Part shown: piece by piece, positions 391 to 56,902 of the stretch
Layout: each line of letters opens with the position of its first letter
Numbering within the stretch: the first letter of the stretch is position 1
Assembly (NCBI GenBank): GCA_031257565.1
Contig: JAIROL010000177.1
Span: forward strand, 1 to 60,315
Direction of reading: 5' to 3'
From: Tannerella sp.
GTDB lineage: Bacteria > Bacteroidota > Bacteroidia > Bacteroidales > Tannerellaceae
Length of the DNA stretch: 60,315 bases
Notes under the pieces: generated by a model
Database searches by the model: none
The model's input: the letters and a program-made list of their open reading frames with translations, nothing else
What the model was told of the DNA's origin: nothing
Made by a program: the position numbers and the translations under genes

Positions 391-489
391 CATGTGTACA
401 TTATTTAAATTTTAACGCTAAGGTAACATAGAACTCACAGCATGTTCATAACTCTTTGGCGCAAGCCGTTGGTTCATGTTCGTTTCATG
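391..489 (-). repeat. Dispersed repeat, copy 1 (short form, 99 bp)
   Basis: This stretch shares long blocks with 15189-15313, 38174-38270 and 56753-56877: a TGTACATT-like start, TTTTAACGCTAAGGTAACAT, AGAACTCACAGCATGTTCAT, CTTTGGCGCAAGCCGTT and a GTTCGTTTCATG end (plus-strand reading). It lacks the roughly 26-bp AACGCTTCGCTAAAAGACC block of copies 2 and 4. The loss lies between two CCGTT words, as expected from recombination between short direct repeats. It lies in the gap between two convergent genes. The rest of the 241-607 gap holds only the two terminators. Confidence 0.85.
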
Positions 490-551
490 TTTGTTTTTGA
501 TTCAAGTACAAAAGTCGGCATTATTTTTTATAAAACCAAATAGCAAAGAAT

Positions 552-600
552 AAAAAAATCGGGTTATGTAGCGAGCGGCATACATAACCCGAAAAAAAAA
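552..600 (-). terminator. Bidirectional terminator after the decarboxylase operon
   Basis: A perfect 11-bp inverted repeat (CGGGTTATGTA at 560-570, TACATAACCCG at 581-591) has a 10-base loop. It is flanked by seven A on the left and nine A on the right, giving a U tract for minus-strand transcripts and an A/U-flanked stem on the other strand. It lies 8 bases past the stop codon of the Na+-pump beta subunit gene, so it should end that operon. Confidence 0.9.
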
Positions 601-607
601 CGAATAT

Positions 608-1768
608 TTATCCCAGGAAGCCTAACAGGATACCGGCCGCTACTGCAGAGCCGATAACGCCCGCTACATTCGGTCCCATAGCATGCATTAGCAGATAGTT
701 TCTCGGATCATATTTCAGGCCTTCAACCTGCGATATACGAGCAGAATCGGGAACTGCCGATACTCCGGCATTTCCGATAAGCGGATTGATTTTGTTGCCT
801 TTTTTCAAAAATAAGTTGAAGAATTTCACAAACAGCACTCCTGCACATGTGGCTATAATGAAAGACAACGCTCCTAAACCGAATATTTTGATAGAATCGA
901 AAGTCAGGAATTGCGTAGCTTGCGTGGAGGCTCCGACTGTTATACCAAGGAGAATAGTTACTATATCGATCATTGGCCCGCGGGCCGTTTCTGCCAGACG
1001 GCGCGTAACGCCGCTTTCTTTAATCAGATTTCCGAAGAAAAGCATCCCTAACAACGGCAAACCTGAAGGTACCAGAAAGCAGGTCAGTAATAATCCGATT
1101 ATAGGAAAAATGATTTTCTCCGTAGAAGAAACAACGCGCGGCGGCTTCATACGTATTACACGCTCTTTCTTCGTTGTCAGCAAACGCATAAACGGAGGCT
1201 GTATAATAGGTACCAGCGCCATATAAGAATAGGCGGACACCGCGATAGCTCCCATTAAGTTCGGCGCCAGTTTGGATGACAGGAATATCGCCGTTGGACC
1301 GTCAGCGCCGCCGATAATACCGATCGCTCCTGCCTGATTCGGCTCGAATCCCATTTGCAAAGCGATAATATATGCTCCGAAGATACCGAATTGAGCAGCT
1401 GCTCCGATAAGCATTAATTTCGGATTTGAAATAAGGGCGGAAAAATCAGTCATGGCGCCAATACCCAAAAATATAAGCGGAGGATACCACCCTTTTACTA
1501 CGCCCTGATAGAGAATGTTTAAAACAGACCCTTCTTCATATATACCAATTTGCAGTCCGGCGTCTTTAAATGGAATATTACCGATCAGCATACCGAAGCC
1601 GATTGGAATCAAAAGCATGGGTTCAAATTCGTATCTTATTGCCAGAAATACAAAGAAAAGCCCTATGAATATCATCGCTACATGTCCCCATGTGGCATTT
1701 GCAAACCCTGTATACGACAGGAATGTTTGCAAATTATCTCCCAAAAACGTTAAAAAACTTTCTTGCAT
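608..1768 (-). CDS. mmdB: Na+-translocating decarboxylase beta subunit (methylmalonyl-CoA decarboxylase type)
   Basis: This 386-residue, very hydrophobic protein belongs to the OadB/GcdB/MmdB family, the membrane subunit that couples decarboxylation of carboxybiotin to Na+ export. Visible family signatures are GVVKGWYPPLIFLGIGAMTD near residue 90, GIIGGADGPTAIFLSSKLAP near 150, the GNLIKESGVTRRLAETARGP segment, and GNAGVSAVPDSAR followed by LLMHAMGPNVAGVIGSAVAAG near the C-terminus. Length matches the family. It is the last gene of a minus-strand operon with the biotin carrier, OadG-like protein, carboxyltransferase and epimerase. That context favours methylmalonyl-CoA rather than oxaloacetate as substrate. 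A strong terminator follows. Confidence 0.93.
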   Translation of the reverse strand: MQESFLTFLGDNLQTFLSYTGFANATWGHVAMIFIGLFFVFLAIRYEFEPMLLIPIGFGMLIGNIPFKDAGLQIGIYEEGSVLNILYQGVVKGWYPPLIFLGIGAMTDFSALISNPKLMLIGAAAQFGIFGAYIIALQMGFEPNQAGAIGIIGGADGPTAIFLSSKLAPNLMGAIAVSAYSYMALVPIIQPPFMRLLTTKKERVIRMKPPRVVSSTEKIIFPIIGLLLTCFLVPSGLPLLGMLFFGNLIKESGVTRRLAETARGPMIDIVTILLGITVGASTQATQFLTFDSIKIFGLGALSFIIATCAGVLFVKFFNLFLKKGNKINPLIGNAGVSAVPDSARISQVEGLKYDPRNYLLMHAMGPNVAGVIGSAVAAGILLGFLG

Positions 1769-1776
1769 AACATGGC

Positions 1777-2208
1777 TTATTTAATGATTACCAAATCGGC
1801 TCCTTCCAGTACGGAATCACCCTTATTTACTTTAATTTCAGCCACAACGCCTTCACGATCCGAAGAAATCGTATTCTCCATTTTCATTGCTTCGAGAACA
1901 AGAAGTTTTTGACCTTTTTTAACGGCGTCGCCAACTTTGCAGTCTATGGAGAGAATTACGCCTGGCAGCGGCGATTTAACGGCGCCGCCTCCGCCTGTAT
2001 TAACAGGGCGTGAAACAACCGGCGCTCCGGATGTAGTAGTCGGCGCCTGTACCGGGCGTTTAACCGTTATCACCTGTTTTTTTACCGGCTTATCCATCAA
2101 TACTTTATATGGAGTTCCGTTTACTTCAACTTCGGCGGTAGTATCTTCCACTTTGTTTACCGTAACATTGTAAACATTACCGTTAATTGTATATTTAAAT
2201 TGTTTCAT
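1777..2208 (-). CDS. mmdC: Biotin carboxyl carrier subunit of the decarboxylase
   Basis: The protein has 143 residues. Its C-terminal half is a biotinyl domain with the classic LEAMKMENTI motif, whose Lys is the biotin attachment site, preceded by GAVKSPLPGVILSIDCKVGD. The N-terminal part is a small beta domain (MKQFKYTINGNVYNVTVNKV) and the middle is a flexible Pro/Thr/Gly-rich linker ending in a poly-Gly stretch. It carries the carboxyl group from the carboxyltransferase subunit to the membrane beta subunit. Only eight bases separate its stop from the beta subunit start, indicating tight co-transcription. The domain is shared with oxaloacetate and glutaconyl-CoA decarboxylases, so the exact enzyme comes from context. 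Confidence 0.92.
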   Translation of the reverse strand: MKQFKYTINGNVYNVTVNKVEDTTAEVEVNGTPYKVLMDKPVKKQVITVKRPVQAPTTTSGAPVVSRPVNTGGGGAVKSPLPGVILSIDCKVGDAVKKGQKLLVLEAMKMENTISSDREGVVAEIKVNKGDSVLEGADLVIIK

Positions 2209-2236
2209 AATATTTATCGGAAAATTATTTGTTTGA

Positions 2237-3121
2237 TTATTTTTTAGAAAATTCTCTCATGTTGTATATTTTGGAATTCCATGGCGAATATCGACGCGTA
2301 ACTTTATGGATTGTAAGCACGGTATTTTCCATGTCATGAACATCTTCTGTCACTTCGTAAAGCGCGGTAGCAATAGCTGCAAATATGGCGCCCTCTTCAG
2401 TATGGCCTTTGGCCGGGATATTTTCCACTCCGGCTTTCCTGGCTCTGCGATTACTCATTTTGATAGCGGATTTTCCTACAAACTTAAATACGACATAAAG
2501 TAGAATGAGCCCTAAAAATACTACCAACATCGCCGTAATTGTCATTCCGAGACCTATTGCGTCATTCTTTTGGAAGTTTTCTATCTTTTCGTTAGAGTCT
2601 AATGTCAGATTGTTGGTGCTGGGAGTTACTTTTGGAAGTGTAGTCCATTCTTGCAGTCCGTCAACCTTACGTCCATAACTGACGTCCGGTTTTTGTCCGG
2701 CAGGGATTCTAATCTCGTCAACTAACGTTTTACCATCCGCATCGTATAAGGCGATGTAGTTCTCCCTCGCCGGATCTAATTTGAAGTTGAGATGAAAAGT
2801 GCCACGGCTTGCATTTCCGTCAGCCCAGAATAGGATATGTTGCCCCGGAGGTATTTTTGTCAGCACGTCTCCTTTAGGAATCGGATATTTACGCGGATTA
2901 TTGGGGTCGTCCGTAAGGAAACATCCACTGATATTTACGGTACCGGCAGAACTGTTGAATAATTCAATCCAACCGCTTCGCTTTCCGTAATCGTCAACGA
3001 AATTGTCTTCATTGATAACAAGTACTTCATTAATGCGCATATACGCAACTCGTTGCGCTGATGCGCTCACTACAAAAAGCAGCGTTAACGACAGAATTAC
3101 GCCTATCTTATTTTTTATCAT
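2237..3121 (-). CDS. OadG-like decarboxylase subunit fused to an exported lamin-tail-type domain
   Basis: This 294-residue protein starts with a signal peptide (residues 1-22, cleavage near SASAQ). A roughly 150-residue beta-rich domain follows with lamin-tail-like features (INEVLVINEDNFVDDYGKRS, GWIELFN, ISGCFLTDDPNNPRKY, LFWADG, FKLDP...IALYDADG). A single transmembrane helix lies near residues 190-215 (LGMTITAMLVVFLGLILLYV), then a basic cytoplasmic tail in the style of OadG/MmdD small subunits. Classical OadG proteins are only about 80-100 residues and lack the exported part. Its place between carboxyltransferase and biotin carrier genes supports the role of anchoring or assembling the Na+-pumping decarboxylase. 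The job of the exported domain is unknown. Confidence 0.85.
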   Translation of the reverse strand: MIKNKIGVILSLTLLFVVSASAQRVAYMRINEVLVINEDNFVDDYGKRSGWIELFNSSAGTVNISGCFLTDDPNNPRKYPIPKGDVLTKIPPGQHILFWADGNASRGTFHLNFKLDPARENYIALYDADGKTLVDEIRIPAGQKPDVSYGRKVDGLQEWTTLPKVTPSTNNLTLDSNEKIENFQKNDAIGLGMTITAMLVVFLGLILLYVVFKFVGKSAIKMSNRRARKAGVENIPAKGHTEEGAIFAAIATALYEVTEDVHDMENTVLTIHKVTRRYSPWNSKIYNMREFSKK

Positions 3122-3142
3122 AATTTATTGATGTTTTTAAGA

Positions 3143-4696
3143 TTATAAAGGAATATTTCCGTGTTTCTTGACCGGATTAATGAGTTTTTTTGTCTGCAAT
3201 TGTTGCAATGCGCGTATTACGCGGAAACGCGTATTACGTGGTTCTATTACATCGTCAATATAACCGTATTTTGCCGCATTGTACGGATTGGCAAAAAGTT
3301 TGTTGTATTCCTCCACTTTTTCGTTCATCATGGCTACAGGGTCAGTCGCTTCTTGCAGTTCTTTTGCATATAATACTTCTGCTGCGCCCAAGCCTCCCAT
3401 CACTGCGATTTCCGCCGTTGGCCATGCATAATTGATATCTCCTCGTAATTGCTTACAACTCATTACGATGTGGGAACCTCCGTAAGATTTACGTAATGTA
3501 ACGGTTACTTTGGGAACAGTCGCTTCGCCATAAGCATAAAGCAATTTTGCTCCGTGCAGGATAACGCCGTTGTATTCCTGTCCTGTTCCCGGAAGGAAGC
3601 CAGGGACGTCTACAAGAGTAACGAGCGGAATATTAAAAGCGTCGCAGAAACGAACGAACCTGGCTCCTTTGCGCGAGGCATTACTGTCGAGAACTCCTGC
3701 AAGGTATTTAGGCTGGTTTGCAACGATACCGACGGATTGTCCGTTAAAACGTGCAAAACCGATGATAATATTTTTTGCGTAATGCGGTTGTATTTCGAAA
3801 AATTCGTTATTATCGACGATTGTAGTAATCACTTCATTTATATCATATGCCTGGGTTGCGCTGTCGGGGATGATTTCATTCAAATTGTCGTCCAGACGAT
3901 CTATGTGGTCATTACATTCTACATAAGGAGGTTCTTCCAGGTTATTTTGGGGGATATAGCTAAGCAGTTTACGGATCATCGCTAACCCCTCTTCTTCCGT
4001 GGGAGTAGTCAGATGTGTCACTCCGGATTTAGTTGAATGAACGCTTGCGCCTCCCAAATCTTCCTGGGAAACATCTTCCCCTGTAACTGTTTTTACAACT
4101 TTGGGGCCTGTAAGGAACATGTAGGATGTACCTTCCGTCATCAGCGTGAAGTCCGTAAGGGCCGGAGAGTATACCGCGCCACCCGCGCATGGACCGAAGA
4201 TACCCGAGATCTGAGGTATTACTCCGGACGCCATGATATTACGCTGGAAAATTTCCGCATATCCGGCAAGCGCATTGATGCCTTCCTGAATGCGTGCGCC
4301 TCCCGAGTCGTTAATGCCGATACATGGCGCGCCCATTTTCATGGCCATATCCATCACTTTGCAGATCTTCAGAGACATCGTTTCGGACAAAGAACCGCCG
4401 AATACGGTAAAGTCCTGTGCAAACACATAAACCAGACGTCCGTCGATGGTACCACAACCGGTGACGACGCCGTCGCCCAGGATTTTCTTTTTATCTTGTC
4501 CGAAGTTTACGCAACGATGTTCTACGAACATGTCCATTTCTTCGAAGCTACCTTCGTCCAAGAGCATGGCAATGCGTTCGCGGGCTGTGTATTTTCCTCT
4601 CTGATGCTGTTTTTCTATCGCTTTTTCTCCACCTCCGAGACGTGCTTTTTCACGTAGAGCGATTAACTCTTTTACTTTTTCAAGTTGATTTCCCAT
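3143..4696 (-). CDS. mmdA: Acyl-CoA carboxyltransferase subunit (methylmalonyl-CoA decarboxylase alpha / PCC beta type)
   Basis: The 517-residue protein is a crotonase-fold carboxyltransferase of the PccB/MmdA family. Visible hallmarks are [20 protein letters not shown], the first oxyanion region [13 protein letters not shown] with [16 protein letters not shown], and the second half with [24 protein letters not shown] and the [15 protein letters not shown] segment. Length is standard. In the decarboxylase complex it moves CO2 from methylmalonyl-CoA to biotin, giving propionyl-CoA. The same family works in reverse in propionyl-CoA carboxylase. No biotin carboxylase gene is present here, while Na+-pump and epimerase genes flank it, which favours the decarboxylase assignment. 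Confidence 0.92.
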
Positions 4697-4743
4697 TATG
4701 TTAATTGTTTAGTATTAAAAAAAATGAATCTCTCTATATAATG

Positions 4744-4789
4744 TAAAAACTTTCCCTGTAAGAGCTATATATGCAGCTGTCCGGGAAAG
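4744..4789 (-). terminator. Stem-loop between mce and mmdA (terminator or attenuator)
   Basis: Read on the minus strand, CTTTCCC and GGGAAAG (plus coordinates 4783-4789 and 4750-4756) form a stem. An inner AGCT pair is possible, and a run of T follows (plus-strand AAAAA at 4745-4749). It lies between the epimerase stop and the carboxyltransferase start, so it could partly separate mce transcription from the downstream genes. Confidence 0.55.
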
Positions 4790-4832
4790 CGACTTCTTAA
4801 ACTTTTTAACCTGTAAAATATCTTTAATATGA

Positions 4833-5234
4833 TTAGTCCATACAGAGTTCCGTCAATACGCCATGAGTAGATTTCGGGTGTAAAAATGCAATTTTGAGGC
4901 CTTCTGCTCCTCCGCGAGGCGCTTTGTCGATAAGCTGAACGCCTTTTGCTTCAACTTCATTGAGCGCGCTTTGTACGTCGGGCACTGCAAATGCGATATG
5001 ATGAATACCTTCTCCGCGTTTTTCAATGAATTTGGCTATCGTACTGTCTTCACTTGTCGGTTCCAGTAATTCTATCTTTGTTTGTCCGATTTTGAAAAAA
5101 GCAGTTTTTACCTTCTGATCGGTTACTTCTTCGATATTGTAACACTTAACGCCTAATATCTGTTCATAGTATGGCAGTTGTTCCTCAATACTTTTTACGG
5201 CAATGCCGAGATGCTCGATATGTGAAATTTCCAT
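4833..5234 (-). CDS. mce: Methylmalonyl-CoA epimerase
   Basis: The 133-residue protein has the VOC (glyoxalase/bleomycin-resistance) fold. It begins [20 protein letters not shown], has IELLEP and [18 protein letters not shown], and ends with GVLTELC. The metal-binding His near residue 7, the His in IHHIAF and the Glu in LTELC match the family layout. It converts (R)- and (S)-methylmalonyl-CoA, linking the B12-dependent mutase product to the decarboxylase encoded just downstream. It is the first gene of the operon and has its own -7 box about 38 bases before the start. Confidence 0.95.
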
Positions 5235-5271
5235 TATAATAATGTATTAAGTAATTAATGAAATTTTTCCG

Positions 5272-5279
5272 CAAAGATA
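5272..5279 (-). promoter_or_regulatory. -7 box for the mce-decarboxylase operon
   Basis: CAAAGATA on the plus strand reads TATCTTTG on the minus strand, a perfect match to the Bacteroidota TAnnTTTG box. It lies 38 bases upstream of the mce start codon. Confidence 0.7.
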
Positions 5280-5463
5280 TGAAAAAAATCCAAATACATT
5301 CTTTTCTAAGCAAATAAAAAGTCAAAAATGTTACATTTTCACAAATGCGTCGTCATATAAAAAAGAAAGTGCAACAGGCAAAGGCGCAAAATAATTGATG
5401 TTAAACAGGATACAATATAATAAAAAAAACTCATAGATTAAAATGGTTTATCAATTTTTTTTG

Positions 5464-5471
5464 TACCTTTG
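5464..5471 (+). promoter_or_regulatory. -7 box upstream of rplY
   Basis: TACCTTTG matches TAnnTTTG and lies 82 bases before the chosen rplY start at 5553. The rest of the gap 5235-5552 is AT-rich and shows no other gene. Confidence 0.7.
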
Positions 5472-5552
5472 CCGCGCTTTTTGGGCCTGTCGTAGTGTGA
5501 TGGGGAATTAGGAAGCAAAGAACTAATTTTGAGTAACACAGATTTTAACAAG

Positions 5553-6206: not shown

Positions 6207-6241
6207 CAGGAAAAATAACGAATACTTTCAATAGAGGAGGA

Positions 6242-6271: not shown

Positions 6272-6287
6272 AACTAAAAATGCAGGA

Positions 6288-6851: not shown

Positions 6852-6872
6852 GCAGGAGCAGGTAATGTTTTA

Positions 6873-7313: not shown

Positions 7314-7340
7314 CCGGCTATAAAAAACAGGTTTGTCCGA

Positions 7341-15188: not shown

Positions 15189-15313
15189 ATGTGTACATTA
15201 TTTAAATATTAACATTAAGGAAACATAGAACTCATAATGTTCATCAATCTTTGGCGCAAGCAGTTTTTTTTTAAACGCTTTGCTAAAAGACCGTCGGTTT
15301 ATGTTCGTTTCAT
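15189..15313 (-). repeat. Dispersed repeat, copy 2 (long form, 125 bp)
   Basis: It shares the TGTACATTATTTAAAT block, TAACATTAAGGAAACATAG, AACTCATAATGTTCATCAA, CTTTGGCGCAAGC, the AACGCTTTGCTAAAAGACCG block and the ATGTTCGTTTCAT end with the other copies. It is more diverged than copies 1 and 4. On the minus strand it contains an open frame that runs through the whole element, but the frame is not kept in the other copies. It lies between two divergently transcribed genes. Confidence 0.85.
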
Positions 15314-21157: not shown

Positions 21158-22735
21158 ATGAAAAAGCATATTATACTTGTAGCTACCGGTATGATAATGA
21201 TGGCCTGTAGCAAAGACGACGAAGTGGCGGTCACGAAAGTAGAGATTGAGCCATCGTCAGTCCGCATAGAAGTGGGTGAAAATTTTACGTTCACGGCAAC
21301 AGTATCACCCGACAATGCCACCAATAAAACGGTAACATGGAGTTGTGACAATCCGGATATTGCGACGATAGATGAAAGTGGTACAGTCGTTGGCGTGTCG
21401 GTAGGCAATGCGCTCATTACGGCCATAGCCGGCGTAAAGAAATGGGTGTCAGAGGTAACAGTTGTTGCCGCTACGGTTCGCGTGACGGGGGTAACGATTG
21501 ACCCACCGACACTCTTGTTAAACACGAGCGACGAGGTTACGCTCACGGCAGTGATATCGCCTCCCAACGCCACCAATCAGGCTGTGTCATGGGAAAGCAA
21601 CAATACGGCTGTGGCCACTGTAAACAGCAGTAGCGGCAAGGTGACAGGCGTAACCATGGGTACAGCGACAATCACGGTGACGACAATCGACGGCGGGAAG
21701 ACGGCTACTTGCCCGGTAACGGTAGAAGTTGCGACTATCCCTGTAACAGGCGTAACAATTAGTCCTCCGGCGCTCAGCTTGGGAACAGGCGGAAAATCCA
21801 TGCTCACGGCAGTGATATCGCCTGCCAACGCTACCAATCAGGCTGTGTCATGGACAAGCGATAACACGGCTGTGGCCACTGTAAACAGCAGTAGCGGCGA
21901 GGTAACAGGCGTAACCGCAGGTCCAGCGACGATCACGGTGACAACGGCCGACGGCGGTAAAACGGCTACTTGTCCAGTAACGGTAACTGCCTTTGCTGAT
22001 TTCACCGACCAGTGGGCGGGCAACATGGTTGCCGTAGCAGGCGGCACAATGACCATGCCTATAGGCGGAACAACAGTTGTTAACATCAATAGTTTCTATA
22101 TGGGAAAATACGAGGTTACGCAAAAGATATGGGAAACTGTAGTGAAAACGCTTCCCCAATACGCCGCGAACCCCTGGCCGAATAGCGCAGGGCCAAACGA
22201 CACGTATGGCAGGGGCGATGATTATCCGGCCCAGTTTATTTCACACGATAATATCATGAATATCTTCCTGCCGGCGCTCAACGCGTTGACGGGCAAAAAC
22301 TATCGTTTGCCCACCGAAGCGGAATGGGAATATGCGGCGCGTGGCGGTCAGCAATCGCAAGGTTTCACAAAGTACAGCGGCAGCGATGATATTACAGCGG
22401 TAGCGTGGTTTGGCCCCGGTGGTTCTGGATGTTCTGGCAATAACTCCGGCGGTAAATCTCACCCGGTGGGTCTGTTGGCAGGGAATGAACTGGGTCTTCA
22501 CGACATGACCGGTAACCTGTGGGAGTGGTGCTACGATTGGTATGATGCTACGACCTACCCAAGCGGAACCGATAATCCAACCGGTCCGACCACAGGCACC
22601 AGACGTGTGCTCAAGGGCGGTAGCTGGCAAAATAACTGCACCACTACCATCCAGTTACCTTATCGCAACAATGCTGCCCCCAATACTGTCGATGGAACTG
22701 GCCGGCATGGTTTCCGCCTCGCGCTTGATAAATGA
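21158..22735 (+). CDS. Lipoprotein with three bacterial Ig-like (BIG2) domains and an FGE/sulfatase-modifying-factor fold domain
   Basis: A protein of about 525 residues. Signal peptide MKKHIILVATGMIMMAC gives lipid-modified Cys17. Three BIG2-type repeats follow (about 25-105, 105-190, 190-275), the last two nearly identical (SPPNATNQAVSW, TAVATVNSSSG, GGKTATCPVTV). The C-terminal 240 residues have the FGE/PvdO fold: MGKYEVTQKIWE, YRLPTEAEWEYAARGGQQ, LGLHDMTGNLWEWCYDWYD, VLKGGSW, HGFRLAL. Where real FGE has two catalytic Cys (RGGSFLC....C), this one has GGSWQNNCTTTIQLPYRNN with one Cys. Formylglycine formation is therefore unlikely, and it may act as a binding or structural domain. The start at 21158 is chosen for the signal peptide. 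Confidence 0.88.
   Translation: MKKHIILVATGMIMMACSKDDEVAVTKVEIEPSSVRIEVGENFTFTATVSPDNATNKTVTWSCDNPDIATIDESGTVVGVSVGNALITAIAGVKKWVSEVTVVAATVRVTGVTIDPPTLLLNTSDEVTLTAVISPPNATNQAVSWESNNTAVATVNSSSGKVTGVTMGTATITVTTIDGGKTATCPVTVEVATIPVTGVTISPPALSLGTGGKSMLTAVISPANATNQAVSWTSDNTAVATVNSSSGEVTGVTAGPATITVTTADGGKTATCPVTVTAFADFTDQWAGNMVAVAGGTMTMPIGGTTVVNINSFYMGKYEVTQKIWETVVKTLPQYAANPWPNSAGPNDTYGRGDDYPAQFISHDNIMNIFLPALNALTGKNYRLPTEAEWEYAARGGQQSQGFTKYSGSDDITAVAWFGPGGSGCSGNNSGGKSHPVGLLAGNELGLHDMTGNLWEWCYDWYDATTYPSGTDNPTGPTTGTRRVLKGGSWQNNCTTTIQLPYRNNAAPNTVDGTGRHGFRLALDK
21480..21990 (+). repeat. Tandem DNA duplication of the BIG2-coding unit (about 255 bp, two copies)
   Basis: The units at about 21480-21735 and 21737-21990 share long identical runs, for example CTCACGGCAGTGATATCGCC and CTGTGGCCACTGTAAACAGC. 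This shows a recent duplication of one Ig-like domain. The first Ig domain (21230-21470) is clearly more diverged. Confidence 0.85.
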
Positions 22736-34720: not shown

Positions 34721-34785
34721 AAGAAACGTCTTTTAAATAAGAGGGCTATCAAAACGATAGCCCTCTTATTTAAAAGACGTTTCTT
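34721..34785. terminator. Perfect 30-bp inverted repeat, bidirectional terminator
   Basis: The 30-base arm at 34721-34750 is exactly complementary to 34756-34785, with a 5-base loop AAAAC. The inner part (GAGGGCTATC/GATAGCCCTC) is a usual GC-rich terminator stem and the outer part (TTTAAATAA/TTATTTAAA) supplies the A/U tracts for both strands. It starts 4 bases after the TetR stop and lies 65 bases before the end of the convergent kinase gene. The stem is far longer than needed for termination. Confidence 0.9.
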
Positions 34786-36946: not shown

Positions 36947-38176
36947 TTATACCAGATCAGACTGCATAATATTTGCCGGAGGTCTTTGGTTCTGTAATTC
37001 TTCTGCCATGAATTTCATGTAAGGATATACATGCTCAAAGTATAATTTTAATCCCGGACATAGATAATTCAGGCCGTATTCGCCGTCGGATGTTGTCGTT
37101 ATTCGATTTTTCGGACATTCTCCGTTGCAGAGGTTAAGAAACTTGCAATCCTGACACTGTAGAGGTAAACAGTCGCGTTTATTGTTGCCAAAACGTTTTT
37201 GATCTCCGGAAAGCGTAATGCCGACAAGCGAATCATGCATTATATTTCCCCGCAAATGCTCCGGATATACGAAATGGTCGCATGCGTAAACATCCCCGTT
37301 ATGTTCCATGGCCAGCGCATGTCCGCATGTTTTTGCATAGATACATACGCCGGGTTGTTCCCCAACCATACAGGCCAGCGTGGCGTCAAATAATTGTATG
37401 TAATATTTGCCTACGTCCTGACGTACCCATTCGTCGAACATACGGATGTAAAAATTTCCATAAGCCAGAGGGGGGACCGACCAGGATGCGATTTCCATGT
37501 CTTCAGGGTTATCCGCTGCCGTAAGCAGTTCGAGCCCGTCGTCGCGCGAGCCGAGACGTTCCACAATCGGTGAAAATTGCATATACCGGCTTCCGATTTC
37601 TTTGAAGAAACGATATATTTCCACAGGATAACCTGCATTGTAGTTATTTATAACGGATAGCGTGTTGAATTCGACGCCGTGTTTTTGCATCAACTCAATG
37701 CCTCGCATGACGCGTTTGAATGTGCCACGTCCACCGCAGTCCTTGCGGTAATGGTCATGGACTCTTTCCGGTCCGTCGATGGATATACCGACCAGAAAAT
37801 GGTTGTCTTTAAAAAAACGACACCATTCGTCGTTCAGCAACAGGCCGTTTGTTTGTATGCAGTTGGAAATCTCGCGTCCGCGTCCGTATTGTTGCTGCAG
37901 GCGTACTGCTTTGCGGTAAAAGTCTATGCCCCGGAGAAGGGCTTCGCCTCCATGCCATGTGAATTGTACGAACGGCGACGTTTGACAGTTAATATATTCA
38001 TCCGTAAAACGTTCAAGGAGTTCTTCCGGCATTTTATATCCTTTTCGTCCTGCAAATAATTCACTTTTTTCCAGATAATAGCAGTATTCGCAATCCATGT
38101 TACACATAGGACCGACAGGCTTTGTCATTACATAAAGCGGGAAAGATAAAGGACTGAAATATAACGTTTCTTTCAT
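36947..38176 (-). CDS. Anaerobic sulfatase-maturase-like radical SAM/SPASM enzyme
   Basis: The 409-residue protein has the radical SAM cluster motif CxxxCxxC as MCNMDCEYCYYLEKSELFAG (Cys25, 29, 32), then QFTWHGGEALLRGIDFYRKA, NCIQTNGLLLNDEWC and FLVGISIDGPERVHDHYRKD. The C-terminal SPASM region has many Cys (CIYAKTCGHALAMEHNGDVY, ACDHFVYPE, CLPLQCQDCKFLNLCNGECP). This is the anSME pattern, which converts Cys or Ser of sulfatases to formylglycine without oxygen. No sulfatase gene is in the window. Its ATG is the last element of repeat copy 3. Confidence 0.92.
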   Translation of the reverse strand: MKETLYFSPLSFPLYVMTKPVGPMCNMDCEYCYYLEKSELFAGRKGYKMPEELLERFTDEYINCQTSPFVQFTWHGGEALLRGIDFYRKAVRLQQQYGRGREISNCIQTNGLLLNDEWCRFFKDNHFLVGISIDGPERVHDHYRKDCGGRGTFKRVMRGIELMQKHGVEFNTLSVINNYNAGYPVEIYRFFKEIGSRYMQFSPIVERLGSRDDGLELLTAADNPEDMEIASWSVPPLAYGNFYIRMFDEWVRQDVGKYYIQLFDATLACMVGEQPGVCIYAKTCGHALAMEHNGDVYACDHFVYPEHLRGNIMHDSLVGITLSGDQKRFGNNKRDCLPLQCQDCKFLNLCNGECPKNRITTTSDGEYGLNYLCPGLKLYFEHVYPYMKFMAEELQNQRPPANIMQSDLV

Positions 38177-38270
38177 GTGTACTTTTTTTATTTTTTAACA
38201 TTTCGGTAACATAGAACTCACAGCATGTTCATAACTCTTTGGCGTTAGCCGTTTTGCATGTTCGTTTCAT
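38174..38270 (-). repeat. Dispersed repeat, copy 3 (short form, 97 bp)
   Basis: It shares GGTAACATAGAACTCACAGC, ATGTTCATAACTCTTTGGCG, AGCCGTT and the CATGTTCGTTTCAT end with copy 1, while its AT-rich left part is more diverged. On the minus strand it fills the gap between the OmpA-like gene and the radical SAM gene, and its GTACACATGAAA end contains the radical SAM start codon. Confidence 0.85.
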
Positions 38271-45050: not shown

Positions 45051-45159
45051 GCAGAAAGCAGAAAGCAGGAAGCAGAAAGCAGGAAAGCAGGAAGCCGTCG
45101 GAAGATGGCGTTACAAACCGCCCTGTGGTTCTTATCTGCGTTCTGCTTTCTGCTTTTTA
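45051..45159 (+). repeat. GCAGAAA/GCAGGAA purine repeat with distal inverted match
   Basis: About six irregular units of AGAAAGC/AGGAAGC fill 45051-45095. GCAGAAAGCAGAA at 45051-45063 is exactly complementary to TTCTGCTTTCTGC at 45141-45153, which is followed by TTTTT. It lies in the convergent gap (44944-45198) after the sigma operon and may form its terminator; no gene is visible in the gap. Confidence 0.75.
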
Positions 45160-49851: not shown

Positions 49852-52800
49852 TCAGGATGATTCATTCGTGTTTTCACCTTTCTGATATACCGACGGAGCG
49901 ACGCCAAACTGCATCTTAAAGCATTTGCTGAAGTAGAATGGATCGTTAATACCTACTTTGTATGACACTTCGGAGATTGTCAGTTCGCCTGATAGCAATA
50001 ACTCTGCAGCCTTTTTCATCCGGATGATACGTATATACTCATTGGGCGAGTAACCTGTAACTCCTTTTACCTTTTTATAGAATATGGTTCTTCCTATTTT
50101 CATCTGCCGGGCAAAGTCGTCTATGGAGAAATCTGCATTGAACATATTTTTCTCAAGTACCAAGTTCAATTTTTCCGAGAATTCTTTATCTTTATCATTT
50201 GTATAGATAGAAGCATGTAAGATACCGGGTTCGGAAGAATATTTTTTCCGTAACATTTCCCGTTGTTCCATCAGCTTGAATATGCGCGCGAGTAGCAGTT
50301 TTATCTTGAATGGTTTGGATATGTATGCATCTGCGCCGTGTTCGAATCCTTCAATCATATTTTCCTGCGTACTTAAGGCTGTGATTAGTATAATCGGGAT
50401 ATGACTTGTGTTAAAATTTGATTTGAGGCGTCTGGTGACTTCAAATCCGTTCATGTTCGGCATAAGGACGTCGCATACGATGAGGTCGTATTCATTTGCT
50501 TCTGTCCTTTCCAGACCGATTTTACCGTCTTCCGCCACGTCGATTTCAAAATAAACGCCAAGCTCTTCTTGCAGGAAACGGAGGACGTCGCTATCGTCTT
50601 CTATGAGAAGAATTTTATACTGATTTAAAGGGGTGACGATTTTTTCCTCTTTCGCCGATAATTGAATGTGCGGCGTATCCATATGTATAGCATTGGAAAC
50701 TTCTTTCATCAGGATATTATTGGGAATGAGGAAGTCGTTTTCTTTGTATTTTGATGTATCCAGAGGAAGCGTAACTGTAAATATGGAACCTTTATTGTCG
50801 TTTTCATGAAAGGAAATTGTCCCTTTGTGAACATTGACCAGTTCATACGTCAGATGAAGTCCGATGCCAATGCTTTCGGAGGAGAAGCTACTTTGCATGA
50901 AACGTTTGAACAATTCTCCCTGTTTCTCTTTCGGGATACCGACTCCATTGTCCGAAACCTGCATTCGCAGGCATTTGTCCGCGTGATCAATAGTTACGGT
51001 CAACGTGATTTTTCCTCCGGACGGAGTGTATTTAAATGCATTGGATAACAGGTTGTATGTTATTTTGTCCATTTTTTCCTTATCTATGTACATCTTATAG
51101 TTATCGGAAGAGGATATAAATCGGAAGTCCATATTTTTAGACTGCACCACATCTTTGAAACTATAGAATATTTCTTTCAGAAAAGCGATGACGTCTGTTT
51201 CCTCTAAAGACAACGTAAGCCTGTTATTCTGCATTTTACGGAACTCAAGTAGTTGATTAATAAGACGTAATAGTCTTTTTGTGCTTTTATCCATTACACG
51301 CAGAGGCGATAACAATTCCTTGGGAAGCAATTCCGCTTTTTGTTCCATTTTTTCCAATCCGCCTTGTATCAATGTCAGCGGAGTGCGGAATTCATGTGAT
51401 ATATTTGTAAAGAAAACAAGTTTATAATTTGTCAATTGCTCCTCCAGTTTAATTTTATTGTTAAGGCGCGCAAAATTGTGCGTAATGCGGTATGTGATGT
51501 ATAAAATACCGATAGCAAGAATGGCATACAGGAAATACGCATAAATCGTTTTCCAGAAAGGGGGGGTGATTATTATCTGCATTTTGGCTTCCCGCGAATC
51601 CCATACGCCCGTACTGTTGCTGGCTCTTACCCTCAGCATATACTTTCCCGGATGGATATTCTTATAGGAGGCTCTGTTTTCGGTTGCGGCAGTACTCCAT
51701 GTCTTATCGTAATTTTCGAGGATATAGGAGTATTTTGTCATATCATATTCCGCAAAATTGAATGTTGAAAAATCGATAGAGAACGTATTTTGCGTATGTT
51801 TTAATTTGATCTGATCGGAATGAGCTATGGAACGCGACATCGGCGCGTCTATGTCGCTGGCATTTGTTTCTATGCCGTTTACTGTAATGTTGGTAAAAAC
51901 AATGGGCGAAGAAAATGCCGTTTTTTTAAGTGTTGACGGATCGATAACAATCAGCCCGTGGTTGGAGCCGAATATTAATTCTCCGTAATCGTTCATACAG
52001 GCGCTGTTTTCGCAATATGCATTTCCCAAACCATAGATCGAGAAAGAGTAGTTTTCGAATGTATTATTCCGGGTATGTAAACGCGAAATGCCGTATTCGG
52101 TTGTTATCCAAATATTGTTGAAACGATCTTCCGTCAATGATTGTACCGTGTTGTTGACCAGTCCGTTTTCTGTTGTGAGACTTTGAAAAGAAAGCGATTC
52201 GTAATTGTTTTCCGGCTTACAGACGGCGAGTCCCGCACCTGCCGCGCCTATCCACATATTTCCTTTACTGTCGCAGAGCAAGGCTCGTATTTCATTGCTT
52301 TTCAGATGTCCGCCCTGATAATTGTAATGATAATATTTTGCCGGATCCTTAATAAGAGAATCGGGGTTAAAAACGAACAACCCGTCATCGCAACCACACC
52401 AGAGCATACCGTTTTTGTCTTCGTTTATGACGCGCATTTGTTTTACCGAATAATTGTGGTTGAAAAAATGACAGAAAGAAAAGTCGCCGTTGCTATCTTC
52501 AACAGCGAGGTCAAGTCCGCCGCCGAATGTTGCAATCCATACCCGTTTTTTCGAATCTTCGTATATGTGGAAAATATTATCATTGGCAAGCGAAGTTGCA
52601 TTTTCAGCATCTTTCCGGTACCATTTGTTATCTATACATAATCCGTTACCACGACTTCCCTGCCACGTTCTCCCTTTGTAGTCCGTTATTGTTTCGTAGA
52701 TGCTTGACGGATAGGAATGTTTTTGCAGAACTTCGGTCATCTGCGTATTATATTCATAGACCTGTCCTTTGCGCGTACCCACCAGAATATTTCCGTTTGG

Positions 52801-54132
52801 AGCTTTGCGTATCATACGTATCGTATTGGAGCGGTCCATCAGATGTTTGTCTTCGGGATAAATGCGTTTTACATCTTCGTCCATAACGGTGAGAACAGAT
52901 AATCCGGCATGATCGGTTCCCACCCAGATTGCTCCGGAGCGGTCTTCAAATACATTGTGCAGAAAATCCGCCCCTATCGGGCTGCTACCATCAACCGATG
53001 ATGAATAATGGTACATTTTTTCGGATGTGGTATGATATGCAAATAATCCGTTCCCGTAGGTCGATATCCAGATTATATTTCTTGAATCGTGAACGATGCT
53101 GTATCGTTCGTAATCGACATATCCGATCTTATCCGGCGGTATCAGGGTAAATACTTTTGACGTATTTTTGTCTTTGTTTATGTACCACAATTTGCCGCTG
53201 TGATTGTATATCCAGTCATTTCCCTTGTTATCGGTAATTACGGTTCCGTCTCCGGGTTCATCTTTCAGCAGTTTGTTACCCTGCGAAATCCGGTTGTTTC
53301 TGATATCATAAGTAAATACTCCGACTGTTGTGAGGATGATCAGTTCATTGTTATGATAGATGCATCCGGTGGGCGTATTGCCTTCTATTTCCGGTAAGCT
53401 GATTTTGTTTTCCTGTTTTTGTGACAGGATATTATAAGTTATTATATTGTTATCCTGAGTGATGAAGTATATATATTTTGTTTTGTCGCTAACGGCAAAG
53501 CGGTAATCGTTTTGAGTATCGGCATTATTCTGATTATTACCGGAAATAATGACAAGCCCTTTTCCCGTTCCTATCCAGATCGTATTTTTGGGGCTTTCCT
53601 GAATGAATGATACCCGATTGTCCGGCAGATTATTCTGTTCCTTTTTATATACTACGGAAGAAAAGGCTCCGTTTTGATATCGTACCAGACGCGCGCCGTT
53701 ACCATTTAAATGTCGTAACCATACATCGCCGTTATCTGCGAGAAACATATTTGTATACCGCTGATACAGGTCTTTGTTGCCGGTGTAATCGACGAAACGG
53801 TCATGTTTAAGATCGTAACAACTGTATAGCTCCGGAGTTGTGGCAATCCACAGGAAACCGTTTTTATCTTCATTTATAATGTTTGTGCGCTGATCGGTAA
53901 GCGATATATTCAGGTTGGGGTCAGGACGCAACGTAACAAATGAGTTCCCGTCGTAACGGCATAACCCATCGATGGTTGACATCCATATAAACCCTTTGCT
54001 GTCCTGATAGAAATAGCGGACCGTATTATTGGCCAGTCCGTTATCAGTAAGAATCTGGGTGGACCGAATCTCTATGTCCGCATGACACAGGTTTGACAGC
54101 AACAGGCATATTATGAAGATACAATTTTTCAT
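49852..54132 (-). CDS. Hybrid two-component system regulator (sensor kinase, receiver, AraC HTH in one protein)
   Basis: A protein of about 1426 residues. Signal peptide (MKNCIFIICLLLSNLCHA) is followed by a periplasmic sensor of repeated propeller strands (for example FIWMSTIDGLCRYDGNSFVT, GAIWVGTDHAGLSVL, MWIGAAGAGLAVC) and a Y_Y_Y domain (KYSYILENYDKTWSTAATEN). A TM helix (IYAYFLYAILAIGILYI) comes next, then HisKA with NISHEFRTPLTLIQGG (His about 913), HATPase (DNGVGIPKEKQGELFKRFM), a receiver (ILLIEDDSD, IVCDVLMPNMNGFEV, Asp about 1221) and a C-terminal AraC HTH (GYSPNEYIRIIRMKKAAELL). It senses an oligosaccharide and activates polysaccharide-use genes. ATG 54132 is used, since the TTG at 54153 touches the -7 box. 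Confidence 0.96.
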   Translation of the reverse strand: MKNCIFIICLLLSNLCHADIEIRSTQILTDNGLANNTVRYFYQDSKGFIWMSTIDGLCRYDGNSFVTLRPDPNLNISLTDQRTNIINEDKNGFLWIATTPELYSCYDLKHDRFVDYTGNKDLYQRYTNMFLADNGDVWLRHLNGNGARLVRYQNGAFSSVVYKKEQNNLPDNRVSFIQESPKNTIWIGTGKGLVIISGNNQNNADTQNDYRFAVSDKTKYIYFITQDNNIITYNILSQKQENKISLPEIEGNTPTGCIYHNNELIILTTVGVFTYDIRNNRISQGNKLLKDEPGDGTVITDNKGNDWIYNHSGKLWYINKDKNTSKVFTLIPPDKIGYVDYERYSIVHDSRNIIWISTYGNGLFAYHTTSEKMYHYSSSVDGSSPIGADFLHNVFEDRSGAIWVGTDHAGLSVLTVMDEDVKRIYPEDKHLMDRSNTIRMIRKAPNGNILVGTRKGQVYEYNTQMTEVLQKHSYPSSIYETITDYKGRTWQGSRGNGLCIDNKWYRKDAENATSLANDNIFHIYEDSKKRVWIATFGGGLDLAVEDSNGDFSFCHFFNHNYSVKQMRVINEDKNGMLWCGCDDGLFVFNPDSLIKDPAKYYHYNYQGGHLKSNEIRALLCDSKGNMWIGAAGAGLAVCKPENNYESLSFQSLTTENGLVNNTVQSLTEDRFNNIWITTEYGISRLHTRNNTFENYSFSIYGLGNAYCENSACMNDYGELIFGSNHGLIVIDPSTLKKTAFSSPIVFTNITVNGIETNASDIDAPMSRSIAHSDQIKLKHTQNTFSIDFSTFNFAEYDMTKYSYILENYDKTWSTAATENRASYKNIHPGKYMLRVRASNSTGVWDSREAKMQIIITPPFWKTIYAYFLYAILAIGILYITYRITHNFARLNNKIKLEEQLTNYKLVFFTNISHEFRTPLTLIQGGLEKMEQKAELLPKELLSPLRVMDKSTKRLLRLINQLLEFRKMQNNRLTLSLEETDVIAFLKEIFYSFKDVVQSKNMDFRFISSSDNYKMYIDKEKMDKITYNLLSNAFKYTPSGGKITLTVTIDHADKCLRMQVSDNGVGIPKEKQGELFKRFMQSSFSSESIGIGLHLTYELVNVHKGTISFHENDNKGSIFTVTLPLDTSKYKENDFLIPNNILMKEVSNAIHMDTPHIQLSAKEEKIVTPLNQYKILLIEDDSDVLRFLQEELGVYFEIDVAEDGKIGLERTEANEYDLIVCDVLMPNMNGFEVTRRLKSNFNTSHIPIILITALSTQENMIEGFEHGADAYISKPFKIKLLLARIFKLMEQREMLRKKYSSEPGILHASIYTNDKDKEFSEKLNLVLEKNMFNADFSIDDFARQMKIGRTIFYKKVKGVTGYSPNEYIRIIRMKKAAELLLSGELTISEVSYKVGINDPFYFSKCFKMQFGVAPSVYQKGENTNESS

Positions 54133-54155
54133 CTGCATATGTGTATTAGACAATG

Positions 54156-54163
54156 CAAATATA
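54156..54163 (-). promoter_or_regulatory. -7 box for the hybrid regulator gene
   Basis: CAAATATA reads TATATTTG on the minus strand, a perfect TAnnTTTG match 24 bases upstream of the ATG at 54132. Confidence 0.7.
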
Positions 54164-54189
54164 AGTAATTATCATTTACCGCCCAAGTA

Positions 54190-54504
54190 TTAATCCATAT
54201 GAAAAACCTCCGGTAGAGGAATGCTTACCGGCGAGTTATCCGGATTTACCTCCATAATATCAGCCATATAATCCCACCATTTCTGTACAATCGGGTTTGT
54301 TCCCATATCCTGTGATGATTCTTCGCCTTTTGTTTTCTGGCAGGCAAAAAGGATGTTGGTTTGTTTATCCCAATAAATTGAATAGTCGTAAACCCCGTTT
54401 TTGGACAGAAGTTCGCGTAGTTCCGGCCAGATTGCCGCATGACGTTTTTCGTACTCTTCCTCGAAACCTGGTTTGAGGAACATTTTAAAAGCTTCTCTTT
54501 TCAT
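54190..54504 (-). CDS. rhaM: L-rhamnose mutarotase
   Basis: The 104-residue protein has the compact RhaM fold: MKREAFKMFLKPGFEEEYEK with RHAAIWPELRELLSKNGVYD (His and Trp of the active site), YSIYWDKQTNILFACQKTKG and NPIVQKWWDYMADIMEVNPD. It interconverts alpha and beta L-rhamnose, speeding use of the sugar. It lies between the hybrid regulator and the GH105/esterase gene on the same strand, pointing to L-rhamnose as a product of this locus. Confidence 0.95.
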   Translation of the reverse strand: MKREAFKMFLKPGFEEEYEKRHAAIWPELRELLSKNGVYDYSIYWDKQTNILFACQKTKGEESSQDMGTNPIVQKWWDYMADIMEVNPDNSPVSIPLPEVFHMD

Positions 54505-54613
54505 GAATTATGTATTAAAGTTATAAATGGCCTGCCGAATCGATCTTCAATTCATAGCTATTATTTCAATGTAAATGATGTTTTATCGAATGTAATGTTT
54601 TCTTCCGTCACAT

Positions 54614-56755
54614 TTATTTCAAATATTGATTCAGCGTACAATCGGTTTTTCGTAAGCCTTCGACGACCGACTCCGCATTCATAATGGCTCCTTCTTTTGT
54701 ATTATGTACGCCGTCGACAAAATAGCCGTTTGTTTTTTCTTTTCCGTCGGTTTCGTATTTCTGTGCGGTTATTTCATTCAGGTCTATGTAATAGACGCCT
54801 TCCTGCTCTGCTACTTCTTTTGACCATTTACCGTAAGTTTCATTGCAACGTCTTACCTTTCCGTCATTCGTCCAGCGGTTTCCGGGGGTATGGGAAGTTA
54901 CGATTACGATAGCGCCTTTTGCTTTTGCCTGCCTGATATACAAACGCAGGTAGTGGCCGAATGTAAAAATTTCTTCTTTACCGCCGTTACGTTCCATTAC
55001 GACCGTTTCGCTTTCTTCGCCGACGCCGGGGAGAGAGGCTCTTGCCCGGCCTGTATTGAGCGGTCCTCCATCGTTATGTCCGAAATCGACGATCACAAAA
55101 TCGACGTTTTCTACCGCCGGAAGCACGTTATCCCAAAGCCCTTCCGTATAATAGGTGCGGCTGCTACGTCCGCCCAGCGCGTGGTTCTCCACCGTGATAC
55201 GCGTCGTATCGAAGAATTGTTCGAAGAAGCTGCCCCAGCCCCACATATTGTTTTCCCCTTGTCCGCCGCCGCATTTTACCGTGGAGTCGCCAATCGTGAA
55301 GATAACCGGTTTTTTCCCTTTGCGACTTGTTCCCGGCGCCCTGTTTGCCGGATTTCCGGAGCTTGCGAAAGCAAATATCGGGGCTTTTGTCGTTTGTATT
55401 TCTGCATAATATTGGACCGCGCTGTCATTCATTTTCGGGAAGTATGATTTCAGTAGTTTTATCATTTCTCCTCCGGCCATTAATACGGGACCGTATCCGT
55501 GTGCCGCATGTGCATTTACCGGACGGTAATAATAGAATGCCGCATCAAAAGCCATACCTGTCCCAACGCAGGTTCCTTCCACCTCTCCTTTTGCGTTTAT
55601 TTTTGTCGAAACGGCCTGCCAGCCGAGGGTTGCCACAGGTCCGTATGCAATCGGGTCTATCCATCCGTTATTGATAGCATGTGCGATACAATAGGTAAAG
55701 ATTGCGGTTGCCGACGTCTCATAATAAGAATCGTTACGGTTAAGTAACTGGCGCCAGAAACCATCGCCACTCTGATAAGACGTAACGTTTTCGATGTGCG
55801 TCCGCAATAATCGGACGATTTCGTCGCGTCCCGTATAATTAGAGGGTAAAGCGTCGAGCACATCGCATAAGGTAAGCATTGCCCAACCATTTGCACGCGC
55901 CCAGAAAAAGGAAGGGCGCTCTGATGAAGACTCGACCCATCCATGGCGGAACAGCCCTTTCTCCGGAACAAACATACGGTCGGAAAACTGTTTGATCTGC
56001 CTTATCGCTTCCTTATAATAGTTATTCTGATTATCGCCGGCATATCTTCCCATCCAGGCAATAGCAGGGATTCCCATATACATGTCGTCAAGCCACAATG
56101 TGTTTTTGTGCGGGCGGTTTCGCGCCAGCGTGCCGTCGCTTAGCCGGTGTTCTTTGTAAAGAATAAAATTCAGATAGTTCTCAATCATCTCTTTCAGATT
56201 GAGGTCTTTGTCTTTCAATTGCGCTTTGATCATGGCGGCGCATACGGCTCCGGCGTCGTCAAGCGCCTGGGGTTTCAATATTTTAATAAATTGTCCGTCT
56301 GTTGTTCCGTGTTCATAATAGGCCTTTTTGAAATGCGGGAATACCGTCGACAGGAAATTGAACCGTTCGCGTACATAATCAAGGTATCGTTTGTCGCCGG
56401 TTGCATCGGCTGCAATCTGCATGGCCGAATAGGTAACGCCCCATTCATAACCGGCCAGCCTGAATGTTCCACGTTTGAGCTGCGCTTCGGCCGGAAGGTT
56501 ATTATAATCCGAAATCGTCGCGTTTGTTCTTTTATCTACCACCTGCGCCGGAGTACATTGTTCCAGATAGGAGCATACGCGGTCCATATCTGCTTTTATT
56601 TTTTCCCCGGATGGAACCCCGTAAGGTATTTTGTACTCCGGTTGCATTAAATGAAGCGGAGTATTGGAGTCGTTTATTTCTGTTTTCCTGTTTTGGGCGA
56701 AACATTCGGAATACAATCCCGATATGAAGATAAAAATTAAAACCAATTGTTTCAT
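54614..56755 (-). CDS. GH105 unsaturated rhamnogalacturonyl hydrolase fused to rhamnogalacturonan acetylesterase (SGNH)
   Basis: This 713-residue exported protein has signal peptide QLVLIFIFISGLYSECFAQ. The N-terminal domain (about 35-450) is GH105: LAGYEWGVTYSAMQIAADAT, RNRPHKNTLWLDDMYMGIPA (Asp of the active site), RPSFFWARANGWAMLTLCDV, YYETSATAIFTYCIAHAINN. The C-terminal domain (about 475-710) is a GDSL/SGNH esterase of the CE12 type: IFTIGDSTVKCGGGQGENNM (Ser), HALGGRSSRTYY, VIVDFGHNDGGP and FVDGVHNTKEGA (Asp, His). The first removes unsaturated galacturonic acid from lyase products; the second deacetylates rhamnogalacturonan. Its ATG lies at the end of repeat copy 4. Confidence 0.93.
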   Translation of the reverse strand: MKQLVLIFIFISGLYSECFAQNRKTEINDSNTPLHLMQPEYKIPYGVPSGEKIKADMDRVCSYLEQCTPAQVVDKRTNATISDYNNLPAEAQLKRGTFRLAGYEWGVTYSAMQIAADATGDKRYLDYVRERFNFLSTVFPHFKKAYYEHGTTDGQFIKILKPQALDDAGAVCAAMIKAQLKDKDLNLKEMIENYLNFILYKEHRLSDGTLARNRPHKNTLWLDDMYMGIPAIAWMGRYAGDNQNNYYKEAIRQIKQFSDRMFVPEKGLFRHGWVESSSERPSFFWARANGWAMLTLCDVLDALPSNYTGRDEIVRLLRTHIENVTSYQSGDGFWRQLLNRNDSYYETSATAIFTYCIAHAINNGWIDPIAYGPVATLGWQAVSTKINAKGEVEGTCVGTGMAFDAAFYYYRPVNAHAAHGYGPVLMAGGEMIKLLKSYFPKMNDSAVQYYAEIQTTKAPIFAFASSGNPANRAPGTSRKGKKPVIFTIGDSTVKCGGGQGENNMWGWGSFFEQFFDTTRITVENHALGGRSSRTYYTEGLWDNVLPAVENVDFVIVDFGHNDGGPLNTGRARASLPGVGEESETVVMERNGGKEEIFTFGHYLRLYIRQAKAKGAIVIVTSHTPGNRWTNDGKVRRCNETYGKWSKEVAEQEGVYYIDLNEITAQKYETDGKEKTNGYFVDGVHNTKEGAIMNAESVVEGLRKTDCTLNQYLK

Positions 56756-56902
56756 GCGTACATTTTTTAAATTTTAACACTAAGGTAACATAGAACTCAC
56801 AAATGTTCATAAATCTCCGGCGCAAGCCGTTTTTTTAACGCTTCGCTAAAAGACCGTTGGTTCATGTTCGTTTCATGCGTACATTGTTTATTTTTTAACA
56901 CG
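56753..56902 (-). repeat. Dispersed repeat, copy 4 (long form) with terminal direct repeats
   Basis: The element spans 56753-56877 and carries all blocks of the family (TAAGGTAACATAGAACTCAC, AATGTTCATAAATC, GGCGCAAGCCGTT, AACGCTTCGCTAAAAGACCG, TTGGTTCATGTTCGTTTCAT). CATGCGTACATT...TTTTAACAC occurs at its left edge (56753-56780) and again at its right edge (56874-56902), so the element lies between near-identical copies of about 28 bp. The left one contains the start codon of the GH105/esterase gene on the minus strand. Confidence 0.9.

Follow-up and report, generated by a model that had tools for sequence, protein, structure and literature searches.

A short non-coding repeat that occurs four times in a 60,315-nucleotide (nt) stretch of Tannerella sp. 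DNA (contig JAIROL010000177.1 of assembly GCA_031257565.1; this whole stretch is hereafter the window) is a real, high-copy and probably mobile element, whose place of insertion appears to be the start codon of genes and which is widespread in parts of the Bacteroidales. We place the probability that it is a mobile element targeting the start codons of genes beginning with ATGAA at roughly 0.85. The whole statement, in which a non-autonomous element inserts at ATGAA start codons by the copy-in mechanism set out below, has about an even chance of being correct.

Copy number was assessed in the draft genome to which the window belongs (4.47 Mb, 294 contigs, 94% complete). The core of the element, AACATAGAACTCA, was found with at most one mismatch at 181 places genome-wide (81 and 100 by strand), against 8 for a reversed-pattern control. 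Its 5' end, ATGAAACGAACATG, occurs at 193 places and its 3' end followed by ATGAA at 192, each against a single match for the reversed control. Chance origin is excluded genome-wide by these controls. A 265-kb extra sample excluded contigs known to hold the core, and so gives no copy density. Read on the strand of the adjoining gene, the unit extends from ATGAAACGAAC to AATGTACAC and ends directly at the start codon; the short form consists of ATGAAACGAACATG...GGCTTGCGCC...GTGAGTTCTATGTTACC...TGTTAAAAAWTAAATAATGTACAC, after which the ATG of the gene follows immediately. The unit opens with ATGAAA, and the A/T-rich leader at its end, TTAAAAAATAAATAATGTACAC, runs into the gene's ATGAA. Its terminal sequences are not inverted repeats of each other.

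The 79 fetched stretches holding copies, together with the window, yielded 98 arrays, comprising 63 single, 31 double and 3 triple arrays and one six-fold array, with units arranged head-to-tail. Among 42 unit spacings, 32 measure 93/94 nt and 8 measure 122/123 nt. Both ends are present in 131 units (88 short, 41 long by about 29 additional nt, and 2 longer still), which represent 121 distinct sequences; 57 of the 94 columns are invariant among the short units. An additional insert precedes TTCTATG in some units (L064, L080, L336). Mini units with internal deletions also occur (L338 and, by our reading, L045 and L055). Different unit types stand side by side within arrays, and at unit-unit junctions we recognize a dyad, ATGTTC...GTACAT, flanking the ATGAAA core. 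Polymorphic sites are near linkage equilibrium, and this holds with a few exceptions for single-unit arrays as well. Being short, non-coding, high-copy and dispersed, the element resembles the miniature inverted-repeat transposable elements (MITEs) in these respects.

The gene-proximal triplet is CAT, that is, ATG on the gene strand, in 86 of the 98 arrays. An open reading frame (ORF) of at least 60 amino acids (aa) is opened by 64 of these ATGs, and among the remaining 22 are contig ends and places without an ORF. Genes bearing the element start with ATGAA in 67 of 69 cases (59 with ATGAAA), compared with 190 of 557 other predicted genes (115 with ATGAAA). ATGAAA is present on both sides of the unit, yet target starts reading ATGAAT or ATGAAG retain their own bases, and the element side stays ATGAAA. 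The motif TAnnTTTG, which we take to be the Bacteroidetes -7 promoter motif, occurs in 15 of 86 native flanks, mostly 20-55 nt upstream (4% in shuffles), and in 5 of 9 flanks in G388, a genome of another Bacteroidales family, but in none of the 131 units. A promoter role for the element is therefore not favoured; since the motif, where seen, lies upstream of the element, the element probably belongs to the 5' untranslated region (UTR) of the messenger RNA (mRNA). Some insertions lie inside operons, because the L047 array sits between what we read as the end of a SusC-like gene and a SusD-like gene. The genes downstream of units include, by our reading, those for cytidylate kinase, PriA, a topoisomerase, dUTPase, SusD-like and response-regulator-like proteins, with no visible theme. 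At L072 (contig C114), an ORF of 1078 aa starts with MKRTCNQ, resembling the 5' end of the element fused in frame before a signal peptide.

Orthologous sites were compared in relatives. Those identified through the gene behind window copy 3 are Tannerella sp. metagenome assemblies, the closest 85-89% identical, and their labels suggest termite or cockroach gut as the source. In the nine closest relatives, the copy 3 locus comprises the upstream gene, a short leader and an ATG, without the unit. A survey of 14 further genes, picked from 64 for conservation, was conducted by a joint search of seven relatives, which yielded 70 loci covering 13 genes; of these loci, one abuts the end of a contig, another offers just 7 nt of upstream sequence and a third contains masked bases. 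A full unit adjoins the ATG in none of the 70 loci, and a truncated remnant is present in one (L221). By our count, the starts of these orthologs, taken as the ancestral target, read ATGAA in 58 of 69 readable cases, or 62 when GTGAA is included. The clearest empty site, L263, carries CCTTACAATAATATTATT directly before ATGAAATATGTAATCGG. The matching site in this genome reads GCTTTACAATGATATT ahead of the unit (L114) and ATGAAACTTGTAATCGG behind it (L111), the two contigs apparently joining as one locus. Three loci in relatives (L255, L260, L264) carry heptamer-like tandem repeats of the CACTAAT or TTAGTGG type right before start codons, similar to the TAACTGA class discussed below.

Truncation is strongly one-sided. 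A distally truncated unit lies, as we read the arrays, upstream of full ones in 17 of 78 arrays, a figure derived from 31 loose-pattern flags after subtracting 14 (contig ends, mutated unit ends and false flags). Lone truncated copies occur at gene starts at L310, L313, L330 and L333, and distal truncation was found at 4 of 35 places in G474, a further genome from outside the family. Gene-proximal truncation is seen in just 2 of the 98 arrays, along with two 5' fragments (L343, L345). Such 5' truncation with a constant 3' end is shared with retroelements of the short interspersed nuclear element (SINE) type. Agreement between units of the same array exceeds chance only close to the 3' end, with a shift at about position -26 (52 pairs); observed against expected agreement is 0.87/0.48 at -2, 0.96/0.78 at -3, 0.73/0.49 at -10, 0.69/0.50 at -25 and 0.50/0.52 at -27. 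The common suffix of the native flank and the unit 3' end is 1.49, compared with 1.15 in shuffled pairs (p 0.0002). Distal truncation, 3'-end agreement and near linkage equilibrium together favour copying from the gene side, with interiors drawn from a mixed pool.

The element extends beyond this genome. BLAST searches of seven genus genomes returned 10 matches in G055, 2 in G022, 1 in G021 and none in the other four. Among nine array ends in G055, by our count, the distance between GAGTTC and the ATG is 43 nt in 7, and an ORF of at least 190 aa follows in 8. At family level, matches at E 0.001 were obtained in 11 of 123 genomes, and the full layout is present in G007 (a clear full copy, L299), G047 and G095. 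Genomes from other Bacteroidales families show the same layout with a different sequence, at 35 places in G474 (unit about 92 nt) and 19 in G388 (unit 128 nt). An ORF of at least 100 aa is opened at 28 of 32 array-terminal places in G474, by our count, and stands behind 13 of 15 copies in G388. Of these 15 copies, which precede different genes, 13 share an identical stretch of 117 nt, and among the 9 full ones 7 are identical over 128 nt, which indicates recent mobility. An order-wide BLAST search with a threshold of E 0.001 matched 18 of 393 genomes, many through short A/T-rich matches. A pattern for the common 3' part matched 37 of 393, but because its reversed control also matches in about 21 genomes by our count, single pattern matches carry no meaning and only genomes with at least 5 matches were used, overlapping matches possibly being counted twice. 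Such pattern counts, taken without inspection of the loci, reach 36 in G314, 28 in G211 and 5 each in G341, G424 and G457. In loci L130-L209 the block stands at an ORF start in none, and BLAST searches of plasmids and phages gave no match. In a search for viral relatives, eight contigs contain the 17-mer, none with the rest of the unit. The L032 match in G028 appears to be fortuitous.

The mechanism that we propose would operate as follows. A unit would insert at an ATGAA start codon so that reading frame, start codon and A/T-rich leader are all retained, and the old promoter would remain upstream, so that the unit joins the mRNA 5' UTR. Copy-in would start from the gene side: the antisense strand of the start codon, ...TTTCAT, would pair with the 3'-terminal ATGAAA of a donor copy, this donor being RNA or DNA, and the donor would be copied toward its own 5' end by a reverse transcriptase (RT) or the replication machinery. 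Synthesis would normally close once the ATGAAA at the donor's 5' end is reached and pairing with the target is restored there; an early stop would leave a distally truncated copy, and repeated rounds would build tandem arrays. More tentatively, and with the odds against it, the elements could form an order-wide, hitherto unrecognized class of bacterial SINE-like elements, that is, non-coding 5'-UTR segments that home to start codons through TTTCAT/ATGAAA pairing, are copied in from the gene side and mask or bypass their own upstream ATG.

Several observations weigh against this account. The copy 3 gene starts with ATGGGA in all nine closest relatives and with ATGAAA here, so at this site the element may have carried in its own ATGAAA; if this were general, the 67 of 69 ATGAA starts would not measure target choice. 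About a fifth of the arrays lack an adjoining ORF. The base preceding the element is C in 34, T in 11 and A in 2 of 47 cases in this genome, and T in 9 of 9 in G388, but all four bases occur in G474 (C 9, T 9, A 8, G 3), so the preceding base gives no uniform rule for a wider target. Clean 5' ends outnumber truncated ones, as a site-specific recombinase would give. Searches for Y1 transposases and RTs yielded no evident enzyme: the only complete RT gene found in this genome is that of an ordinary group II intron, and G007 (81% complete) has a full copy of the element and no RT match.

The predominance of clean ends leads to the rival in which excised units are inserted by site-specific recombination at a short ATGAAA core, as with integron cassettes or tyrosine-recombinase elements, arrays arising by repeated insertion. 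ATGAAA bounding each unit on both sides, the dyad around the core at unit-unit junctions and the adjacency of mixed unit types in arrays all fit this scheme. It does not explain why distal truncations far exceed proximal ones, why rare 3' ends are common to the units of one array when interiors are not, or why ATGAAT and ATGAAG targets keep their own bases beside an element end that stays ATGAAA. A double-stranded DNA circle of 94 bp is, moreover, physically unlikely, and we regard recombination as rather improbable. Insertion by target-primed reverse transcription, with the RT of a group II intron or another RT acting in trans in a SINE-like manner, is a special case of the copy-in mechanism and would account for distal truncation and precise gene-side ends. 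This genome has one complete group II intron RT and a fragment, and RT matches coincide with copies of the repeat here (G000) and in G021, G022, G055 and G047. However, RT matches are present in 16 of 41 genus genomes, most of them without the repeat, the full copy in G007 is again unaccompanied, and the RT of this genome is single-copy and resembles an ordinary maturase; we consider this special case quite unlikely. A Y1 transposase (PF01797) has no match in this genome, and 17 of 41 genus genomes have one.

Another interpretation holds that the unit is a regulatory 5' UTR module of a regulon, kept by selection and spread by ordinary gene conversion rather than selfishly. The invariance of 57 of 94 positions in the short units, polymorphic sites near linkage equilibrium and the hairpin between the 5' end and TTCCAT in G474 (z about -4 in two copies, double changes in 3 of 9 pairs) would suit such a module. 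Against it stand downstream genes without a visible theme, the lack of the unit at orthologous genes in most relatives, a short-unit fold in this genome no better than shuffled, and the identical G388 copies, which look like a burst; we consider it unlikely. An artefact of assembly, or contamination resembling adapter sequence in a metagenome assembled from short reads, might be suspected because many contigs of this 294-contig draft end within arrays. It is nevertheless very improbable, given single units within unique flanks and diverged copies of the same layout in independent assemblies, including those of G095 (9 contigs) and G474 (30 contigs).

In G474, the unit 5' end pairs with the TTCCAT block, with 94.6% of cells in helix; the number of double changes is reached by 13 of 500 shuffles. 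The helix takes in the unit's own first AUG, and the inverted repeat thus formed has one arm at the 5' end and the other in an internal block rather than at the 3' end. The same pairing is predicted in G388, L299 and L120 and not in the units of this genome, so it may be lineage-specific. The fold of this genome's unit is weak (z +1.6 for the short unit). At gathering scores, Rfam 15 finds only a transfer RNA (tRNA) in the window and nothing in five loci from G474, G388 and relatives; weaker matches below these scores were treated as chance. A chain of overlapping micro-ORFs from the element ATG to the gene ATG occurs in 38 of 131 units against 9.6% of shuffled interiors, which is above chance in a minority of units and is not claimed. 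Nor is a conserved leader peptide claimed, its frame being shifted, as we read it, by the insert of the long form. Enrichment of ATGAAACG genes (6 of 59 versus 7 of 115) is not convincing, and an excess at gene starts relative to ATGAAA sites elsewhere in non-coding DNA came from one biased sample and is not relied on.

Within the window, a sequence-only reading had described four copies with the same ordered blocks, and these are indeed the top direct-repeat family in a repeat search. They are 66-87% identical in a gap-free comparison, with about 30 extra nt in copies 2 and 4. The places given for them were right, and the exact ends are corrected here to 394-488, 15191-15313, 38177-38270 and 56756-56876, all on the minus strand, which is the meaningful strand because it is that of the adjoining gene. 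Copy 1 is one 95-nt unit, followed in the gene-strand sense by ATGAAA at 393-388, which opens only 30 codons. Copy 2, a long unit of 123 nt, is followed by ATAAAA rather than ATGAAA and has no adjoining ORF. Copy 3, a short unit of 94 nt, adjoins the start codon (ATG at 38176) of the minus-strand gene at 36947-38176, which encodes 409 aa with Radical_SAM and SPASM domains. Copy 4, a long unit of 121 nt, adjoins the start codon (ATG at 56755) of the minus-strand gene at 54614-56755, which encodes 713 aa with Glyco_hydro_88 and GDSL lipase domains; upstream of it, at 56877-56901 on the minus strand, lies a 5'-truncated second unit of 25 nt that retains only the 3' end. The proposed link to minus-strand gene starts therefore holds for copies 3 and 4 and fails for copies 1 and 2, which have no evident gene start.

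The shared orientation noted in the same reading is correct for the four copies and carries little weight, since both strands are used genome-wide and what is fixed is orientation relative to the gene. Its statement that no tRNA or known RNA explains the copies agrees with the sole window tRNA lying at none of them. In the window alone, the core pattern with 3 mismatches allowed gives 10 matches against 5.3 expected, not clearly above chance. Its forecast of hundreds of copies is borne out by about 190 units in the genome, so the family is not limited to four copies, and adjacency to ORF starts far above expectation answers the objection that copies might lie without any link to gene starts. 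Its suggestion of a non-autonomous mobile element or mobile 5'-leader cassette gains support from these two results, from the empty ortholog sites and from the near-identical copies in G388.

Other repeats were observed alongside the element. The window contains what we read as a terminator-like hairpin beside copy 1, a perfect inverted repeat at 34721-34785 (30-nt arms, 5-nt loop) forming a strong terminator-like hairpin at an ORF end, and two 184-nt direct repeats, 88% alike, within one ORF at 21541-21985. A second repeat of the genome is built of tandem units, each about 84-85 nt long and apparently containing a dyad (GATAGCGCAAG...CTTATTTTTATTGCCGAGGCGC...), found at L056:1415-1600, L066:1247, L093:6889-7150 and L102:5329, one 15-mer of which occurs 9 times in the fetched stretches. 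A hairpin repeat, CCGTATAGTTTTGGCAATCAAAACTATACGG followed by a promoter-like motif, TATTTGCGG, has a 15-mer in 7 places and the hairpin at 4 (L054:5541, L056, L068:223 and L084:4032); at L068 and L084 the start-codon repeat follows shortly downstream. Another, longer repeat, whose inverted arms read AAGCAGAAAGCAGAA, is present at window 45055-45156, L049:926, L085, L088 and L093, with one 15-mer at 8 places in the fetched stretches.

If the proposed account is true, a mobile element that chooses start codons and spares gene function would represent a new way to spread in a compact genome, and the 5' UTRs of many genes would be rewritten at once. A SINE-like class, if it exists, would spread through coding genomes at almost no host cost, varying in sequence by species with the layout kept. 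The element would also offer a test case for how short repeats move without a transposase of their own, a question that many bacterial repeats pose. Annotation is affected as well: copies of ATGAAA ahead of genes produce false upstream starts and, at L072, an apparent in-frame N-terminal extension.

The open-access literature searched contains no description of this element; subscription journals lay outside the search. Repetitive extragenic palindromes (REP) with their associated transposases (RAYT) and the palindromes derived from IS200/IS605 are short dispersed extragenic elements with a preferred target, all features shared by the present element. Unlike REP/RAYT, it lacks conserved end hairpins and occurs in a genome without a Y1 transposase match. 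Mobile promoters and leader cassettes are likewise mobile segments placed before genes; here, in contrast, the native promoter is kept and the unit carries no TAnnTTTG. The BrickBuilt MITE of Porphyromonas gingivalis, as portrayed in the part of its description used here, is also a high-copy, species-specific, non-coding element with tandem units in a related member of the Bacteroidales (PMC4596501). According to that part, BrickBuilt is bounded by terminal inverted repeats, is found 49-591 nt away from coding sequences and shows promoter activity (PMC4596501), whereas our element adjoins start codons without terminal inverted repeats or a promoter motif. Closest in position are the TAACTGA heptamer repeats found upstream of start codons in Beggiatoaceae, Cyanobacteria and Bacteroidetes, for which the portion of the source considered here suggests a post-transcriptional role (PMC4679880). 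Both are abundant, lie at or a few nt upstream of start codons, show no gene-function pattern and include Bacteroidetes among their hosts (PMC4679880). In place of tandem repeats of 7 nt, as that portion presents them, the present element has periods of 92-95 and 122/123 nt and units of 94-128 nt whose ends are defined and both marked by ATGAAA, and it shows distal truncation as well as dispersed copies that are nearly identical.

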